Positions 2,041-50,100 of a stretch of 50,151 bases of DNA are shown here, in pieces; the first letter of the stretch is position 1; the number at the start of each line of letters is the position of its first letter. This DNA comes from Candidatus Peribacteria bacterium (GTDB lineage: Bacteria > Patescibacteriota > Gracilibacteria > UBA1369 > 2-02-FULL-48-14). The position numbers were made by a program, and so were the translations under genes. The stretch spans positions 1 through 50,151 of the forward strand of contig CALRCE010000005.1 in NCBI GenBank assembly GCA_943354505.1, read 5' to 3'. Under the pieces are notes generated by a model. It was not told where the DNA came from, ran no database searches, and saw only the letters and a program-made list of their open reading frames with translations.

Positions 2041-3345
2041 ATGAAGTCCACCGCCACACAAATCGTTGCCACCCTGCAAAAAGCTGGATTCAAAGCTTAT
2101 TTTGCCGGGGGATGTGTGCGCGACAAACTCATGGGCCGCGAACCCAAAGACATCGACATTGCGACCAGTGCCTTGCCCGATCAAATTGAAAAACTCTTCG
2201 TCGACACCTATCCCGTGGGCAAAGCCTTTGGTGTGATCCATGTGAACGAAAATGGACACACGTTTGAAATCGCCACCTTTCGCAGCGACTCCGGCACCAG
2301 CGATGGACGTCGTCCCGATGCGGTTTTATTCAGCCACGCCGAAGACGATGCTCAACGCCGCGACTTCACGATCAACGCACTTTTTTACGATCCCATTAAA
2401 GACGAGATGCACGACTTCATTGGGGGACAAGACGACATCGGCAACAAACTCATCCGTTTCATTGGCGACCCGCATCAAAGAATTCTTGAAGATCACCTCC
2501 GCATCCTTCGGGCCATCCGTTTTAAAAACACGCTAGGTTTCAATTACCATCCAGACACCTACGCCGCCCTCAAAAAACACGCTCCACTCGCCGACAAAGT
2601 GAGCTGGGAACGCGTACGAGATGAACTCAATAAAATCATCATGGCGCGAAGTGCACCTGTGGCTTTTGAAGACATGCAAGACACCGGCGTTTTACCCTAC
2701 GTTTTACCCGAACTGGAAGCCTGCAAAGGAATGGCTCAGCCAGCCGAATTCCACCACGAAGGCGATGTGTGGACTCACCTCATGCAAGCACTCAACTCTT
2801 TGCCGGAGGAAGCCACCTTGCTCGATCATTGGGCCGTGATTTTGCACGACATTGGCAAGCCGGAAACCTTCAAAATCGAAGAACGCATCCGCTTCGATGG
2901 CCACAGCGAAGTGTCTGCCGAAATTGCGGAACGAATCATGCGCCGCCTCAAATTTTCTCGCCGCGACATTGAGCACGTCACCTGGGTGATTCGCCATCAT
3001 TTCATGATGCACCAACTCCTCGACATGGAAATCGGCAAGCAACGCCAATGGTTTTTAGACGAACGCTTCCCAAGTCTCATGCTCTTGTTTTACGCGGATG
3101 CCATGGGCACCACTCCGGCCAGCCTGCATCTGTACAATCAAGTCAAAGCCGCTCGTGAAGACTGTTTGCAGCGTTTCCCGGCTTTGCCGGAACCTTTCAT
3201 CACCGGCGCAGACGTGATGCAAGTGCTGTCCATCAAAGGGGGTCCTCGTGTGGGCGAAATCCTCACAGAGGCCATGGTGAAACAACTCGGTCACGACTTA
3301 CAAAATCGTGAAGAAGCGTTGGAGTGGCTGAAACAACTAAACTGA
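2041..3345 (+). CDS. cca: CCA-adding tRNA nucleotidyltransferase with HD domain
   Basis: Adds or repairs the 3' CCA of tRNAs. 434 residues. The nucleotidyltransferase head has AGGCVRDKLMGRE (22-34) and the metal-binding pair in KDIDIAT (D37, D39). The RNA- and nucleotide-binding regions follow, with DHLRILRAIRF near 150-160, and an HD motif (HDIGKPETF, near 270) marks a C-terminal HD phosphohydrolase domain. Both tRNAs in this window already encode CCA, so repair may be its main task for those. It is followed after 3 bases by a small membrane protein gene. Confidence 0.95.
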   Translation: MKSTATQIVATLQKAGFKAYFAGGCVRDKLMGREPKDIDIATSALPDQIEKLFVDTYPVGKAFGVIHVNENGHTFEIATFRSDSGTSDGRRPDAVLFSHAEDDAQRRDFTINALFYDPIKDEMHDFIGGQDDIGNKLIRFIGDPHQRILEDHLRILRAIRFKNTLGFNYHPDTYAALKKHAPLADKVSWERVRDELNKIIMARSAPVAFEDMQDTGVLPYVLPELEACKGMAQPAEFHHEGDVWTHLMQALNSLPEEATLLDHWAVILHDIGKPETFKIEERIRFDGHSEVSAEIAERIMRRLKFSRRDIEHVTWVIRHHFMMHQLLDMEIGKQRQWFLDERFPSLMLLFYADAMGTTPASLHLYNQVKAAREDCLQRFPALPEPFITGADVMQVLSIKGGPRVGEILTEAMVKQLGHDLQNREEALEWLKQLN

Positions 3346-3348
3346 TTT

Positions 3349-3798
3349 ATGAACACAGAACTCCGACGACGACTGCAAATCTCCATCCAACGAACCAAAC
3401 GCAATTTCATCATTGTCTTGTTCATCTTAGCCGGACTGCTCGCCATGATGTTCGCCGCCGTTTTTTATGATCCGGAACGAACTCTTTTCACACAAGTGGC
3501 TGTGAGTCTGCTTGCCTTGGGAGTGGTTTACTTGATGCTTAAAATGGCAAAAATCGCCTTCAAACCCAATCCCTTACTTGAAATTTTGGAACATCAGCCC
3601 AGTCAAATCAAAACGGTGGAGGTGATCTCCATCGTTTATCAAAACGGGCGCCCTAGTTTTCAAATGAACCTCCACTTTCACACGGCGGACGGCAGAAGGC
3701 TTGTTCTCTCTGAAAATCGCAGCTCCATCGAAGCTCTTCTTCCACTATTGAGAGCGCAGCTCCCTCACGCCGAATTCAGAGAAGCAAGCCAACGTTGA
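3349..3798 (+). CDS. Small two-helix membrane protein, unknown function
   Basis: 149 residues, unrecognised. The basic N-terminus (RRRLQISIQRTKR) precedes a hydrophobic helix at about 20-41. A second helix follows at about 47-66, then a soluble C-terminal domain of about 80 residues with alternating beta-like segments. Charge distribution suggests both ends face the cytoplasm. It starts 3 bases after cca and is probably cotranscribed. It ends one base before the convergent M23 peptidase gene, with no visible terminator between them. Confidence 0.7.
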   Translation: MNTELRRRLQISIQRTKRNFIIVLFILAGLLAMMFAAVFYDPERTLFTQVAVSLLALGVVYLMLKMAKIAFKPNPLLEILEHQPSQIKTVEVISIVYQNGRPSFQMNLHFHTADGRRLVLSENRSSIEALLPLLRAQLPHAEFREASQR

Positions 3799-3799
3799 T

Positions 3800-4333
3800 T
3801 CAATTCGGGATCTGGGATAAGTAATCCACAGGGTTAATATTGTAACCGCTGTAGTTTCCTAGGCTCCGCGTCATGATTTCATAACCCATTTCGGGCTCTT
3901 CCGAAAGAATCTCAAAATGCAAATGAGGGCCTTTAGTGGCAGTGCCGGTGTTGCCCGTTTTTGCAAAAATTTCATCCGCTTTGATGAGCGCGCCCTCTGT
4001 TGTAAGGATCTCATTCAAATGTGCGAAGACCAAAATATTTCCCCAAGCATCTTCAGCATACAGGCAAGTGCCCATTTCATTTTGTTGCCGAATGTCCACC
4101 ACGCGAAGAGGCACAGTCATAGAAAGGGGAGTGCCTTCGGGCGCAGCAATGTCTATTCCAGTATGGCCTTTCACGGGATCGTAAAAATCTCCTTTGGCTT
4201 GGAAAGGATTGCTGAGCCGATATCCAAAATAGAGAGACTCTTCCCATTTGAATAGGCCTAAAACTTGAAGCAAAAGAACGCCCAACAATAGGGCCAAAAG
4301 AAGGACGGAAATAAAACGGTTTTGACGCTTCAT
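3800..4333 (-). CDS. Membrane-anchored M23 (LytM) peptidase
   Basis: 177 residues. An N-terminal membrane anchor or uncleaved signal (about 8-28) precedes an M23 domain. The zinc site HTGIDIA (His and Asp), the middle FAHLNE motif and the GPHLHFE motif are all present, so it should be an active peptidoglycan endopeptidase outside the membrane. The linker is only about 30 residues, so it would act close to the membrane. It lies directly downstream of rlmD (stop of rlmD at 4334), implying one transcript. Confidence 0.9.
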   Translation of the reverse strand: MKRQNRFISVLLLALLLGVLLLQVLGLFKWEESLYFGYRLSNPFQAKGDFYDPVKGHTGIDIAAPEGTPLSMTVPLRVVDIRQQNEMGTCLYAEDAWGNILVFAHLNEILTTEGALIKADEIFAKTGNTGTATKGPHLHFEILSEEPEMGYEIMTRSLGNYSGYNINPVDYLSQIPN

Positions 4334-44479: not shown

Positions 44480-46750
44480 ATGAATAAGAAAACCGTAAAA
44501 GCGGACCTTGCTGGCCGCACCCTCAGTTTAGACACTGGCAAATTTGCGCTCCAAGCCGACGGAGCCGTCACCATTCAATATGGTGAAAGCATCGTGCTTT
44601 GCAGCGCGATGATGTCGGAGAAAGGCAAGGAAGGAGCCGATTTCTTCCCGATGACCATCGACTACCAAGAGCGTTTCTTCGCAGCAGGTAAAATCAAAGG
44701 ATCCCGTTTTATGAAGCGCGATGGACGCGCCACCGACGAAGCCGTTTTGAAGGCTCGTCAAATCGACCGTCCCATTCGTCCCATGTTCCCCAAAGGAATC
44801 ACCAATGAAGTTCAAGGAATCGCCATGGTGCTTTCCGCCGACCTTGAAAACGAATGTGGAGTTTTGGCTCTCACTGGGATGTCCGCTGCCATGATGGTGG
44901 CTGGCTTGCCTTTTGCAGGACCTCTCGCCGGAGTTCGCATCGGAATGAAAGACGGACAATTCATCGTCTTCCCAACCATTGAACAAACGACTGCCGGAGA
45001 CCTCGACCTCGTCGTCGCTGGAACCATGGACGCCATCACGATGGTGGAAGCCGGGGCCAACGAAGTGACCGAAGAGAAGATGCTCGAAGCCCTCGAACTC
45101 GCTCACAGCGTGATCAAGCAAATCTGCCAATTGCAACTCGACCTCGTGGCTCAAGTCAGCCCTGTGGCGCGCACCTACGACTACGCCAAGCCTTCCGATG
45201 AAATCCTCGCCCTCGTGGGGGGAGTGGTTTCTGCTGCCGAACTCGACACGGTTCGTGGAGTGGGAAAAGCAGCCATCAAAAACGCCGTGCATGCTTTGCA
45301 AGACAAAGTCGTGACTCACTTTGCCGCTGAAATCGAAGCGGAAACCCAAAGCGCTGGCGCTCTAAAAGAAGCTTTGCAAAAACTCGTCGACGAAAACCTT
45401 CGCAAAAATATTTTGGAAAAAGATTTCCGCATCGACGGACGCACCCTCGACGAAGTTCGCCCCATTTCTTGTGAGGTAGGAATCATTCCTCGAACCCACG
45501 GATCCGGACTCTTCATGCGTGGAGAAACTCAAGTGCTCACCCTGACCACCCTCGGTGCTCCGGGCGACGCTCAGATCCTCGACAGCATGGAAATGGATAT
45601 CGAAAAACGTTACATCCACTACTACGACTTCCCACCGTTCTCCACCGGAGATTTGAAACCTCAACGCGGACCTTCTCGCCGAGAAATCGGACACGGAGCT
45701 CTTGCTGAACGCGCGCTCAAGCCCATGATCCCTGCCAAAGAAGATTTCCCATACACCATCATGGTCGTATCTGAAACCCTCACGTGTAACGGATCCAGCT
45801 CCATGGGATCCGTCTGTGGATCGACCTTGTCCTTGATGGACGCCGGAGTGCCGATCAAAAAGCCGGTTTCTGCAGTGGCCATGGGACTCGTGTGCAGCAA
45901 AGAATTCAAAGAAACAGGAACGGGAACTTACAAGATTTTAACCGACATCCAATCCTTCGAAGACTTCGCAGGAGACATGGACTTCAAAGTCGCTGGAACC
46001 AACGATGGTATCACGGCACTTCAGATGGACATCAAAGTGAAAGGAATCACCACCGCCATGATGAAGGAAGCGATGGCCAAAGGGAAAGTGGCTCGCGACT
46101 CCATCATGAAAGACATGCTCTCTGTGATCGCTGCGCCTCGCACCGAACTCAGCAAATACGCTCCCATCATCACCAAGATTCAAATCAATCCCGATTACAT
46201 CCGTGATGTCATTGGTAAAGGAGGAGAAACCATCCAAAAAATCACCGCAGAATGTGGAGTTGAAATGGACATCGAACAAACCGGTCTCGTCATCATCACC
46301 GCTCCCAACAAGGAAGCGTCTGATAAGGCGGAACAATGGGTTCGCTCCATCGTTTACGAACCCACGGTTGGAGAAGAATTCGACGGAACCGTCGTATCCA
46401 TCATGGACTTCGGCGCCTTCGTGGAATTCGTTCCAGGAAAAGACGGTCTCGTGCACATCAGCATGCTCCGTCCTTGGAGAGTGGACAAAGTCGGCGACGT
46501 TGTTAAACTCGGCGACAAAGTGAAGGTCAAACTCATCAAGATCGACGACCAAGGTCGTTACAACCTCTCGATGAAGGAATTCTACAAGGATGAAGCGCCT
46601 AAACCCGCTGCACCTGCACCCATGTCAGCTCCAGCGCCTCGCCCTGCCCCAATGGCACAAGCGCCCATGCCTCAGGCTCCTGCCGCACCCGCGGCCCCTC
46701 AAGCTCCTGCTCCAGGTCAACTCGACACGAGCATCGACGGAGGATTCTAA
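44480..46750 (+). CDS. pnp: Polyribonucleotide nucleotidyltransferase (PNPase)
   Basis: 756 residues. Phosphorolytic 3'-5' exoribonuclease. Two RNase PH domains (about 1-215 and 315-540), the second with FMRGETQVLTLTTLG and the phosphate-site block SSSMGSVCG, are joined by a helical domain. KH (IGKGGETIQKI, about 570-630) and S1 (GTVVSIMDFGAFVEF, about 635-705) domains follow. An added Pro/Ala/Met-rich tail of about 50 residues is longer than usual and probably disordered; it may bind RNase partners. A structured leader precedes the gene. Confidence 0.97.
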   Translation: MNKKTVKADLAGRTLSLDTGKFALQADGAVTIQYGESIVLCSAMMSEKGKEGADFFPMTIDYQERFFAAGKIKGSRFMKRDGRATDEAVLKARQIDRPIRPMFPKGITNEVQGIAMVLSADLENECGVLALTGMSAAMMVAGLPFAGPLAGVRIGMKDGQFIVFPTIEQTTAGDLDLVVAGTMDAITMVEAGANEVTEEKMLEALELAHSVIKQICQLQLDLVAQVSPVARTYDYAKPSDEILALVGGVVSAAELDTVRGVGKAAIKNAVHALQDKVVTHFAAEIEAETQSAGALKEALQKLVDENLRKNILEKDFRIDGRTLDEVRPISCEVGIIPRTHGSGLFMRGETQVLTLTTLGAPGDAQILDSMEMDIEKRYIHYYDFPPFSTGDLKPQRGPSRREIGHGALAERALKPMIPAKEDFPYTIMVVSETLTCNGSSSMGSVCGSTLSLMDAGVPIKKPVSAVAMGLVCSKEFKETGTGTYKILTDIQSFEDFAGDMDFKVAGTNDGITALQMDIKVKGITTAMMKEAMAKGKVARDSIMKDMLSVIAAPRTELSKYAPIITKIQINPDYIRDVIGKGGETIQKITAECGVEMDIEQTGLVIITAPNKEASDKAEQWVRSIVYEPTVGEEFDGTVVSIMDFGAFVEFVPGKDGLVHISMLRPWRVDKVGDVVKLGDKVKVKLIKIDDQGRYNLSMKEFYKDEAPKPAAPAPMSAPAPRPAPMAQAPMPQAPAAPAAPQAPAPGQLDTSIDGGF

Positions 46751-46826: not shown

Positions 46827-47969
46827 CTACTTTCCTGCATTCAAAAAGAAATGGAACGGCAAATAAAGCAGCATGAGCCCACCAAAAAAAGCGAAACCCA
46901 TTTGGATGCCGAAACTCTGCCAAACGTAGGCAAAAACAAAGCCACTGACGATGCCAAATTCTTTCACTAGGGATTGAATCGAAGCCAGAGTCGCTCGGTG
47001 ACTTTCGGGAGCATGATGTTGCACCACACTTTCTTGCAGGACCAAAAGTGTCGCCATCACACTCTCCAAAAAGAAAAGAGGGAAGAACCAAAGAGGAGAG
47101 GGAAAGAACCCGCTCAGCAACAAGGTCAGACCCAAAAAAGTGACACCCACTCCAATCGACGGTTCCACGCGTTTGCGCAAGCGATGTGCAAAGGAGCCGA
47201 CGACGGCACCCATCAAAGAAGCCGAACCCACAAAGAGTCCAAAATGAGCATTGCTCAGCCCGTACCATTGAAGGTACACGTTCCAATACTCATCGAGCAC
47301 AAACCAAGAGGACCAGACGATGAGACTGAAGAGAAGAGAAGAAAGAAGGAAGCGATTTTGCAGAGAAAATTTGAGCCCTATTTTTAGAAAAGCAAAAGGA
47401 TGCTCTTCCACTTTCAAGGTTTTTGGGAGTTGAGGCAAAAGCAGCGACACCAAAGCCGCCAGAAATCCCGTTAAAGAAGAGAGGACGATCAAGAGTTGGG
47501 TCGAATACTCGCTCAGTATTCCGCCGACAATCCATCCCAATCCGGTTCCCACGAAATACATGGCCTTCAGTCGGCCCCAGCGTTTTTCAAACTGCTCGGC
47601 TTCGCCATTTTGACTCAGATGATCGTAAAGATAAGCCTGCAAAGTGCCGCTCGAAAAAGAAAGGGAAAGGCCACGCAAAATCAGTCCCAACAGAAACCCC
47701 CAGAAGGAAGGGAAAATCAGCCACAAAAGGTAACCGAATCCCAATAAAATCCCCGAGCTCGTGAGCATTTTCTTGCGATCCCAGTAGTCAGCCAAAACTC
47801 CGGTGGGAATTTCAAAAAGGAGTGTGCTGAGGCCCCACACCGCATTGAGGATAGAGACCTGAAAAATACTCAAACCACTGTCCAAAAAGAACAGTTTTTC
47901 GATCGCATAGATCGTGATGAACTCGAGTAAAAATTGATAAGCAGATAAAAGAATTAAAGTTCGTTTCAT
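46827..47969 (-). CDS. Major facilitator superfamily transporter
   Basis: 380 residues from the ATG at 47967-47969; four extra residues are possible upstream. About 11-12 hydrophobic helices. The motif-A-like loop ADYWDRKKML lies between helices 2 and 3, as in drug/efflux MFS proteins, and the central loop is short and basic. The substrate is unknown; sequence such as VLDEYWNVYLQWYGLSN is not diagnostic. It ends at the bidirectional terminator shared with pnp. Confidence 0.88.
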   Translation of the reverse strand: MKRTLILLSAYQFLLEFITIYAIEKLFFLDSGLSIFQVSILNAVWGLSTLLFEIPTGVLADYWDRKKMLTSSGILLGFGYLLWLIFPSFWGFLLGLILRGLSLSFSSGTLQAYLYDHLSQNGEAEQFEKRWGRLKAMYFVGTGLGWIVGGILSEYSTQLLIVLSSLTGFLAALVSLLLPQLPKTLKVEEHPFAFLKIGLKFSLQNRFLLSSLLFSLIVWSSWFVLDEYWNVYLQWYGLSNAHFGLFVGSASLMGAVVGSFAHRLRKRVEPSIGVGVTFLGLTLLLSGFFPSPLWFFPLFFLESVMATLLVLQESVVQHHAPESHRATLASIQSLVKEFGIVSGFVFAYVWQSFGIQMGFAFFGGLMLLYLPFHFFLNAGK

Positions 47970-48187
47970 AATAAAAAGCATTTAAAAAGAAGCAGGCTCA
48001 AAAAGCTCTGCGAGTGTTTTTAAACGCCTTTAACGAAAGAAGGAGCTCTGGATCAACATTTTTAGATCGGGAATTGCTTGATTGAAATTCATACAAGCGA
48101 GATTTTAGCCCAAAACGGACCTTCTGTCCATCTTTAGACACAAGCCCTCTTGCGTCTGCGCCCATTTTTGCTAAACTCACGCAAGCT
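47970..48187. other. Non-coding gap before tRNA-Gly(GCC)
   Basis: No supported gene. It holds a small hairpin GGAC-CTTCT-GTCC near 48117 and the tRNA promoter at 48150. Confidence 0.4.
48150..48177 (+). promoter_or_regulatory. Promoter of tRNA-Gly(GCC)
   Basis: TTGCGT, 16 bases, TAAACT, then 10 bases to the first base of the tRNA. Confidence 0.6.
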
Positions 48188-48262
48188 GCAGGTATCATAT
48201 AATGGTTATTATGCCGCCTTGCCAAGGCGGAAATACGGGTTCGATTCCCGTTACCTGCTCCA
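48188..48262 (+). tRNA. tRNA-Gly (anticodon GCC), CCA encoded; integration target
   Basis: Acceptor GCAGGTA/TACCTGC, anticodon stem CCGCC/GGCGG with loop TTGCCAA and anticodon GCC, T arm ACGGGTTCGATTCCCGT, discriminator U, CCA in the DNA. It reads GGC and GGU glycine codons. Its last six bases (GCTCCA) are also the first six bases of the recombinase-associated inverted repeat, and the recombinase stop codon lies in its acceptor stem. The tRNA itself is intact. Confidence 0.97.
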
Positions 48263-49723
48263 AACAGTAAATTGCGATTTTTCGCCCGCCGCGGCCCACG
48301 GAAAACCCAATTCCACGGCGGCTTTTTGGCCGATGATGTGGAAGTTCGAGCCAATTTTTTGCAAAAAGCTTCGCTTTTCTTCTAAATTTCTAGAATCAAC
48401 GTAGTTGATGGCTTGGTGAGCCGACAAAATCCATTCTTTGAAGAGTTCGAGCCAATGGAGTCCTCTTCCGCCGGATTCCTTTAAATTTTCTTTGATTTCA
48501 ATTTTTCGGTTCAAAAGTTTCTTTTTGGTTTCAGTGTATTCCTCATTGGTTATGGTTTGCTCAAGATAGGCATCAAGCAAGCGCATTTGCTTTTCCTCCA
48601 ACGCCTTGAGTTCCATTTTAACCTCACCGGCGGAAGAGGACGAAACGGTCGAAGCCTCTTTGTAATCGAGTTCCCATTGTTTCATGAATTTTTCTTTCCA
48701 GTCATCACTCAAAGCAACTTTTTGAAAAAGCTCATTGAGCTGTTTAACCAGTTCTCGCTCTTCAACATATTTCTGACTACAAACACGGTTCTTTTTGGTG
48801 CAGCGGTAATAGATGTACGTGCGGCCTGATTTTTTGATTTTCTTTTCAGCGGTGATTGCACGGCCGCACTCGCCACAACTAAAGATTCCGCAAAAGGCAA
48901 AACTCAACAATTGTTTTGCCTTTTGCGGCTTAGATCTCTGTTCTATTACCCGCTGCACCTTGTCAAAAAGTTGCTTTGAGATTATTGGCTCATGGCTTCC
49001 TTGATAGGCTTCGCCCTTTCTTGTGATGACACCATAATAGAATGGATTTTGCAACATGTGCTCAATTCTCGAGAGTACCAAAGCATCATTGGTACGTCGG
49101 CTCACCAAGCCCAAAGAAAGCGACAATTTTTGTAAATTTTCAAGTGTTGATTCTCCCGTGGCATACGCCTCAAATAGCGCGCGAACTGCTTTCCATCTTT
49201 CGGGATCTTTGACGATGGTGTGATGCCTCAATTCGTTCAAATACCCTACAGGAGCAAGTCCGGGCAGTTCGCCGCGCCTTAACTTTTGGCGTATGCCGCG
49301 TTTAATGTTTTCAGAAAGATTATCAATGTAATATTTACTTTGCCCAAAAGCGATATTGAGCATGAACTTTCCTTGCGGAGTGCTATCAAACCAAAAAGTG
49401 GGGAATTTTAGCGTTCCTATTTTTGCTTCATCTATCAGGTAAATGATTTTTCCTCCATCCACGCTGTTTCTCGCCAGCCTATCCGGATGCCACGCTAAAA
49501 TTCCCACGCTATCCGAATGACCGCCAAGTTCAATTTGTTCGATCATCTTGTTGAAAATCGGCCTTCCTGGCACTTTTGCCGTTTTGCTTTCAATAAATTC
49601 CTCAATGACTTCTAATTTCTCTTTAGCCGCATATTCTCGCAACTCTGTCAGTTGCCCCTCAATAGAGAGAACTTGGCGGTCGTCTTCATCCGTTGATTTT
49701 CTGGCATAGATAAAATATTTCAT
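48251..49723 (-). CDS. Large serine recombinase (resolvase/integrase)
   Basis: 490 residues. The resolvase domain has R8 and catalytic S10 (YARKSTDED) and the later arginines in WHPDRLARNSVDGG. A recombinase domain follows (about 160-260), then a zinc ribbon (CGIFSCGECGRA and CTKKNRVC, about 278-318), a coiled-coil-like helix (about 340-420) and the tail ending KIGSNFHIIGQ...WSR. The last 47 or so codons lie in the repeat at 48257-48393, and the TAA is in the tRNA-Gly acceptor stem. Large serine recombinases integrate phages and islands; no cargo gene is visible on this side. Confidence 0.93.
   Translation of the reverse strand: MKYFIYARKSTDEDDRQVLSIEGQLTELREYAAKEKLEVIEEFIESKTAKVPGRPIFNKMIEQIELGGHSDSVGILAWHPDRLARNSVDGGKIIYLIDEAKIGTLKFPTFWFDSTPQGKFMLNIAFGQSKYYIDNLSENIKRGIRQKLRRGELPGLAPVGYLNELRHHTIVKDPERWKAVRALFEAYATGESTLENLQKLSLSLGLVSRRTNDALVLSRIEHMLQNPFYYGVITRKGEAYQGSHEPIISKQLFDKVQRVIEQRSKPQKAKQLLSFAFCGIFSCGECGRAITAEKKIKKSGRTYIYYRCTKKNRVCSQKYVEERELVKQLNELFQKVALSDDWKEKFMKQWELDYKEASTVSSSSAGEVKMELKALEEKQMRLLDAYLEQTITNEEYTETKKKLLNRKIEIKENLKESGGRGLHWLELFKEWILSAHQAINYVDSRNLEEKRSFLQKIGSNFHIIGQKAAVELGFPWAAAGEKSQFTVWSR
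48257..48393 (-). repeat. Inverted repeat copy A (recombinase tail, tRNA side)
   Basis: 137 bases. The reverse complement of copy B (49791-49929) matches it over a 106-base core (48257-48362) with one mismatch, then differs at a hairpin (AAAAGC-TTC-GCTTTT here, TTTTGCC-TTC-GGCAAAA in B) and matches again over CTTCTAAATTTC. Confidence 0.9.
48364..48378. repeat. TTC-triloop palindrome inside copy A
   Basis: AAAAGC-TTC-GCTTTT, coding for part of KRSFLQ of the recombinase on the other strand. Copy B has a different palindrome of the same design at the same place. Confidence 0.6.
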
Positions 49724-49754
49724 AGGCTTAGTTGGTTATCGCTTTTGGGCAAAG

Positions 49755-49769
49755 CCGTGCTTCGCACGG
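49755..49769. repeat. TTC-triloop palindrome upstream of the recombinase
   Basis: CCGTGC-TTC-GCACGG, 32 bases before the recombinase ATG, between the gene and copy B. Confidence 0.55.
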
Positions 49770-49790
49770 AAAAATTGTTGCTTTCTTTGA

Positions 49791-49929
49791 CTGGAAATTT
49801 AGAAGTTTTGCCTTCGGCAAAAAGCAAAAAATTGGCTCGAACTTCCACATCATCGGCCAAAAAGCCGCCGTGGAATTGGGTTTCCCGTGGGCCGCGGCGG
49901 GCGAAAAATCGCAATTTACTGTTTGGAGC
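49791..49929 (+). repeat. Inverted repeat copy B
   Basis: 139 bases, head-to-head with copy A across 1.4 kb. The extra two bases lie in its hairpin (TTTTGCC-TTC-GGCAAAA, 49806-49822), which shifts the frame relative to copy A outside the core. Confidence 0.9.
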
Positions 49930-49977
49930 TGCTTGTATGACGAAGTTCGGACTCATTTTAAAGCATCTGGAGGCTAG
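49791..49977 (+). pseudogene. Detached recombinase C-terminal tail in opposite orientation
   Basis: Copy B encodes on the plus strand the same tail as the recombinase (KIGSNFHIIGQKAAVELG and onward to FTVWS), but after WS it reads CLYDEVRTHFKASGG and a stop instead of R and stop. No resolvase or DNA-binding domain precedes it. It may be a relic of a second recombinase or the alternative tail used after inversion. Confidence 0.6.
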
Positions 49978-50013: not shown

Positions 50014-50100
50014 CGCCAGCGTGCGTTGAAAGGGGGCAACGCACGCTGGCGCACCCATGCCCACTCTCACGCGCCGCCCGAAAGGGGGCGGGCGGCGCGT
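50014..50100. other. Tandem GC-rich hairpins with the same AAAGGGGG loop
   Basis: Hairpin 1 (50014-50051): 15-base perfect arms CGCCAGCGTGCGTTG and CAACGCACGCTGGCG. Hairpin 2 (50069-50100): 12-base arms ACGCGCCGCCCG and CGGGCGGCGCGT. Both enclose exactly AAAGGGGG although the stems are unrelated. The remaining bases to the window end show no gene. Confidence 0.75.

Follow-up and report, generated by a model that had tools for sequence, protein, structure and literature searches.

A candidate serine-integrase element with a duplicated, inverted attachment region at tRNA genes of Patescibacteria

Why would a serine recombinase gene lie between the arms of a near-perfect inverted repeat, one arm of which encodes the end of the recombinase itself? 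The window, that is, the whole 50151-nt stretch analysed here, which is the entire contig C5, carries such a gene beside a tRNA gene (Table 1). The original prediction read it as a possible self-inverting cassette, with a relic of two insertions or an assembly error as alternatives. Its description of the locus is borne out. The repeat is real and lies at the predicted positions; its 106-nt core arms are 99% complementary and spaced by 1461 nt, and with a continuation at 48379-48393/49791-49805 (one gap) they reach the predicted 137 and 139 nt. Arm A forms the recombinase's 3' coding end; the minus-strand reading frame of the recombinase crosses this arm and enters the 3' end of tRNA-Gly(GCC). 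The plus-strand frame through arm B continues as FTVWSCLYDEVRTHFKASGG to a stop at 49977. The 6 nt of the tRNA core recur inverted at 49924-49929, and the repeat is close to the contig end, as predicted, since the contig stops 222 nt past arm B. The genome holds no further copies of the repeat (whole-genome search) and no second copy elsewhere of P', the sequence past arm B. When scanned, the hairpin TCTGGAGGCTAGCCTCCAGA does not rise above the shuffled background of the region; alike hairpins occur in L008 and L010.

Table 1. Features at the window locus and in its flank (positions of the whole stretch)
Feature	Position	Strand	Basis
PNPase-like ORF, upstream in the flank	44480-46750		syntenic with G001
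B-side chromosomal flank: 384-aa membrane-transporter-like ORF, MFS-like by inspection	46827-47981	-	ORF list
tRNA-Gly(GCC), integration target (attB/attL B-side)	48188-48262	+	ARAGORN; unoccupied in congener G001
Large serine integrase, 490 aa, integrated-state tail ending FTVWSR-stop	48251-49723	-	ORF, domains, remote A118 match
Common core GCTCCA, tRNA 3' end (putative crossover region, attL)	48257-48262	+	sequence; cores of relatives
Arm A (putative half-site P), integrase 3' coding end	48257-48362 (to 48393 with gap)	.	repeat search; concerted evolution with arm B in relatives
Arm B, second putative half-site P copy, head-to-head with A	49824-49929 (to 49791 with gap)	.	repeat search
Putative intact attP-type region (P, core, P'), still present after integration and truncated by the contig end	49824-50151	.	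comparison with relatives
P' start: conserved native integrase C-terminus CLYDEVRTHFKASGG-stop, in frame with arm B	49930-49977	+	sequence; motif in relatives
Terminator-like hairpin TCTGGAGGCTAGCCTCCAGA plus T run, overlapping the native stop codon	49966-49994	+	pattern match only
Two GC-rich hairpins within the P' region	50014-50100	.	repeat search (I11, I21)

The enzyme is a large serine recombinase (LSR), which upholds the predicted protein class. Its Resolvase, Recombinase and Zn_ribbon_recom domains (PF00239, PF07508, PF13408) all exceed the gathering score, the integrase profile has a remote match to A118 integrase structures in the DNA-binding domain, and the catalytic-domain columns are invariant across 13 relatives. 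The gene is uninterrupted in 157 of 162 cases, which indicates that these elements are not dead relics.

The layout of the window recurs in many genomes. The first seven elements, the window and six close relatives, all read tRNA 3' end, arm A, integrase and arm B; they target tRNAs for Gly, Gln, Pro, Leu and Ser, and in each case the contig ends 0-255 nt past arm B. Scanning GTDB genomes yielded 80 loci, and a phylum-wide search detected close integrase homologues in 77 of 380 sampled genomes. Once near-duplicates were removed, 143 loci (most loci being metagenome-assembled) had enough flank to be evaluated, and an inverted repeat surrounds the integrase in 130 of them, with arms of 33-171 nt (median 120 nt) and a median identity of 99.2% (at least 97% in 97 of the 130). 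In 128 loci, which represent 19 target categories, the integrase has a tRNA or tmRNA on its 3' side, and the overlap of arm A with the tRNA 3' end is 6 nt in 61 loci and 4-8 nt in 95. Distant homologues (~35% identity) occupy tRNA 3' ends as well, yet without the repeat. Part of the 13 loci in which no repeat was detected are diverged or gapped copies, since the motif of the native tail described below persists upstream in three. At L171/L229, L184 and L095, the target is the 3' end of a tmRNA gene.

What lies past arm B, where so many contigs stop? A second inverted repeat was predicted there from one fragmented genome (G012) and then looked for in relatives. More than 2.5 kb of sequence follows arm B in 68 loci, and 53 of these have such a repeat, made of P' arms of 65-408 nt (median 148 nt) with a median identity of 99.1%, around a cargo segment of 0.7-9.2 kb (median 3.4 kb); in the other 15 this search found none. 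The near P' arm abuts arm B or overlaps it by a few bases. Both arm pairs are present in the complete genome CP055308.1, and single-contig genomes show the same architecture. The integrated element in relatives is therefore arranged as tRNA, P-int-P, P'-cargo-P' and chromosome. Contigs break past arm B because P' is itself repeated, and the end of the window contig fits this layout, in which the second inverted repeat follows B.

The ends of the element carry marks of integration. A few nucleotides are common to attL, the middle site and the far end, at the position of the tRNA discriminator (GCT for Gly, CAG for Gln, CCA for Ala, CCG for Ser), and in L069 and L103 the far-end core is followed by CCA, as expected for a displaced tRNA 3' end. 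The left flank is separated from tRNA-Ala by ~9 kb in CP055308.1, which has the element, and by ~140 nt in its congener G062, an empty site. By these sequence features, the element is a putative serine-integrase genomic island at tRNA genes, both in the relatives whose far ends are assembled and on the tRNA side of the window. Comparison of related genomes at the window's own tRNA, the check proposed with the original prediction, gave a site without the element: in G001, tRNA-Gly(GCC) downstream of PNPase is unoccupied. The genes downstream of it in G001 were not found at a corresponding place in G000. They were tried as a route to the window's far end and rejected, the 469-aa gene being absent and the 392-aa homologue lying on contig C16 without tRNA synteny. 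The far end is absent from this assembly, and the window's own attR and cargo would be those deduced from relatives.

The original prediction also gave the recombinase two alternative tails. The second one is a conserved coding sequence in relatives, a part of the claim that stands and gains weight. Among 104 loci in which the frame from arm B into P' could be tested, 86 have a conserved [VIAL]R[TNVSA] motif in frame, and the length of the native tail from the core onward has an interquartile range of 14-18 codons. Third positions are the most variable in its codons; Arg is encoded by CGA, AGA or CGG, and each of the four Thr codons is used. In frame, pN/pS has a value of 0.56, compared with 0.77 and 1.15 for the shifted frames, at near-saturating distances and in a motif-anchored alignment. 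Together these patterns point to selection on the native tail as protein. The tail of the integrated state is unconstrained, with an interquartile range of 7-30 codons and up to 88. Since one tail is conserved and the other is not, the native integrase would end in P', and integration at the tRNA would replace that end. The part of the claim that attributes the swap to inversion does not hold up as well: the exchange of tails is better explained by integration than by routine inversion. No integrase with the native tail at its own 3' end occurs in any assembly, yet 157 of 162 genes are uninterrupted, and the lineage must therefore pass through a form that is missing from these assemblies.

The arms also evolve in concert. 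In 60 pairs of elements whose integrase genes are ~87% identical, the median arm identity is 86.5% between elements and 99% within them, and in 51 of the 60 the between-element value lies below both within-element values. The two arm copies are thus being homogenised, via gene conversion or rare inversion. Two side observations concern the arms. L009 and L010, both at tRNA-Gln(CTG), differ strongly in ~27 nt beside the core and are nearly the same over the remaining arm; in each element, both arm copies have changed together near the core. In L008, L009, L010, L012 and L014, the inner end of arm B is a GTTCG motif with a small hairpin directly after it, which we read as a probable fixed boundary of the ancestral duplication.

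The reading that we favour, at a probability of about 0.72, is that the feature in the window is the tRNA-proximal end of an integrated element run by the LSR, that this element derives from a circle with twin attP sites, and that the spare copy is kept as a backup. The unintegrated form would be a circle that carries the attachment region, namely the integrase 3' end, core, native tail and terminator (P and P' joined), twice and in inverted orientation. Two inverted attP sites could coexist on one circle because LSRs recombine attP with attB only (PMC3783163). Recombination between the copy at the integrase 3' end and the tRNA 3' end (attB) would produce attL, in which P follows the tRNA, and attR, in which P' meets B', and the other P-P' copy would remain intact between integrase and cargo. 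The native tail CLYDEVRTHFKASGG-stop would thereby be exchanged for a short run of codons from the antisense strand of the tRNA, in this case R and a stop. The least certain step is the role of the second copy, which could be a backup of both the integrase 3' end and attP. Integration would partly damage the integrase, the native 3' end would be restored through gene conversion or homologous inversion involving the ~100-nt arms A and B, so that the element could move once more, and the same exchange would keep the arms identical. This use of the doubled attachment site is our favoured guess. In a shallow AlphaFold model (13 sequences), the arm-encoded residues 458-490 have a pLDDT of ~30; the model is too poor there for the role of the tail to be derived from structure. 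Given this low confidence, loss of the last residues may leave the enzyme active, and the backup role may be wrong.

How do other explanations compare? The original prediction would have the integrase regularly invert its own gene between A and B, with the C-terminus toggled as a phase switch. The arms are near-identical and in frame both ways, the native tail is conserved, and the integrase reads away from the tRNA in four loci, as a switch of this kind would have it. However, these four stand against 128 non-redundant loci with the integrase directed toward the tRNA, and the contigs of all four stop within the distal arm or short of it, as from a misjoin, so frequent self-inversion is unsupported; nor does any assembly supply the native-tailed gene. 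Serine integrases, moreover, recombine attP with attB, and no other pairs unless a directionality factor helps (PMC3783163). A is an attL-type junction (tRNA and P) and B an intact attP-type junction (P and P'), which do not form such a pair, and the lack of free inversion fits this rule. A routinely inverting cassette is thus unlikely. The prediction was correct that plain integration alone leaves no inverted repeats, and the element indeed carries a duplicated, inverted attachment region.

A different use of two inverted sites is known from the yeast 2-micron plasmid (Flp/FRT), a circle with two inverted recombination sites. The free circle might likewise invert between its two att sites and so enter double rolling-circle replication. 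The topology corresponds, with a circle, a recombinase, two inverted sites and the recombinase 3' end inside the repeat, although for the present element the circle is deduced from integrated sequence. The yeast plasmid has a tyrosine recombinase, replicates autonomously and inverts frequently, whereas the element here is integrated with fixed orientation. Frequent inversion would randomise the direction of cargo relative to the integrase, yet cargo genes point away from it in 49 of 56 elements, which indicates that the larger circle does not invert freely. Recombination of attP with attP is also not an LSR reaction (PMC3783163), and no circle was found in any assembly (viral contigs gave 6 loci and 0 circles) or in plasmid and phage collections, where no close integrase homologue occurs either. 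Such amplification is very improbable, and we hold in equally low regard the idea that pairing of A with B and of P' with P' folds a single strand into a double-stranded attP after competence uptake. Both arm pairs are near-identical over much more than an att half-site, as such folding would favour, but the integrase gene would itself be single-stranded, hence untranscribed, and gene conversion in a duplex circle accounts equally well for the identity. Both ideas are less likely than a backup. An assembly artefact or a relic of two insertions, the alternatives in the original prediction, is the least credible explanation of all and can be dismissed generally. The window does stop 222 nt past B, as many short-read contigs do, but the repeat of P' explains these stops, the architecture recurs across many assemblies (130 loci), among them the complete genome CP055308.1 and single-contig genomes, and a congener has the empty site. 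An integrated element that retains a spare attachment site thus remains the preferred reading.

Among known systems, the element can be compared with LSR elements of the A118, phiC31 and TP901-1 type, which it resembles in protein family, domain order, attL/attR logic, a short core and att beside int. It differs from them in that many tRNA 3' ends are targeted, the attP region is duplicated and inverted, and a single unit, which integration would split, comprises the integrase 3' end, the core and the native tail. In archaeal suicidal integrases (SSV1, pTN3, pT26-2), integration disrupts the integrase's own gene, and help in trans is needed; these are tyrosine recombinases, said to be restricted to archaea, and their genes are split in two (PMC8371274). 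The likeness is that integration would alter the element's own gene, but here the recombinase is a serine integrase, which rejects assignment to the archaeal tyrosine type, it would lose only a short C-terminal tail, and a spare copy of the 3' end is kept. It is possible, though we put this forward tentatively, that the elements represent a self-repairing class of suicidal integrases, in which the inverted and homogenised backup of 3' end and att would re-arm the element by rare A/B inversion and so circulate defence cargo between tRNA sites.

SCC elements (CcrA/CcrB/CcrC, at rlmH) are likewise chromosomal cassettes with serine recombinases, but the present elements target tRNA genes and have long (33-171 nt) coding inverted repeats. 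Assignment to SCC was rejected, as NCBIfam Ccr matches fall below the cut-off (CcrB 93 bits against 900) and the site is a tRNA. Integrons share a recombinase beside variable cargo and occasional tandem modules, but the element has neither a tyrosine IntI nor attC, and most of its additional copies are the far ends of older insertions, in which every element once had an integrase of its own. The serine recombinase and the multi-gene cargo between long inverted repeats rule out an integron. An integron-like cassette array, suggested by nested inverted repeats in G012, was also discarded because most of the surplus P' copies mark where earlier insertions end; tandem insertion fits these repeats better. 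No description of this architecture was found in the open-licence literature. As far as this search reaches, twin inverted att sites that evolve in concert, together with a tail swap, are undescribed.

The cargo indicates what such elements could carry between genomes. Most of the tested cargo proteins, candidates picked as defence-like by eye, match PADLOC defence models, including AbiL-like (L069), OLD-like ATPases (L083, L123), Vsr (L101) and DrmD/helicase-like (L120) proteins. Type I/II methyltransferases and restriction enzymes occur in L073, L077, L083, L106, L117 and L123, and metabolic or signalling genes are found in other elements. Non-systematic inspection of the cargo ORFs revealed no genes recognisable as serving replication or conjugation. 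Because close homologues are present in 77 of 380 genomes and cargo proteins of several elements match restriction-modification and other defence families, these elements appear to be a major channel for gene exchange in bacteria whose mobile DNA is little known. Their layout also explains a recurrent contig break in Patescibacteria assemblies. Furthermore, the elements are a source of many serine integrases that are specific for particular tRNAs and whose att sites are delineated. How the integrase controls and restores itself is a testable question raised by the twin sites and the tail swap. Against the usual direction, the cargo points toward the integrase in L096, L176, L178, L183, L197, L205, L232 and L233, which could be the result of rare cargo inversion.

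Several loci have additional modules or fragments. L058 (G012:C157) contains two successive cargo modules with their own inverted repeats (162-250/3412-3500 and 3603-3711/5201-5307); the same integrase-tail sequence precedes each (60-160 and 3500-3600), an integrase start follows, and there is an odd junction near 3500. We offer the reading that these are tandem elements or remnants at one site. Second cargo modules or additional P' far arms past the first element occur in L104 (4010-9881 and 675-3958), L109, L190 and L233, which suggests that the same tRNA was targeted repeatedly and that older integrases were lost. In L123, ~1.5 kb (2547-4054) separates the far arm from the flank that the congener shares and contains methylase and HNH-type genes by eye, perhaps as the remnant of an older island. 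Finally, integrase-tail fragments lie at the 3' ends of Gly and Gln tRNAs in L041 (7925-8026), L042 (6009-6107), L043 (6322-6450), L044 (944-1039) and L045 (4824-4922) with no full-length integrase adjoining; L044 also has an integrase fragment (residues 216-302) at 575-835. These tail fragments resemble attL scars left behind by elements that were lost or have decayed.
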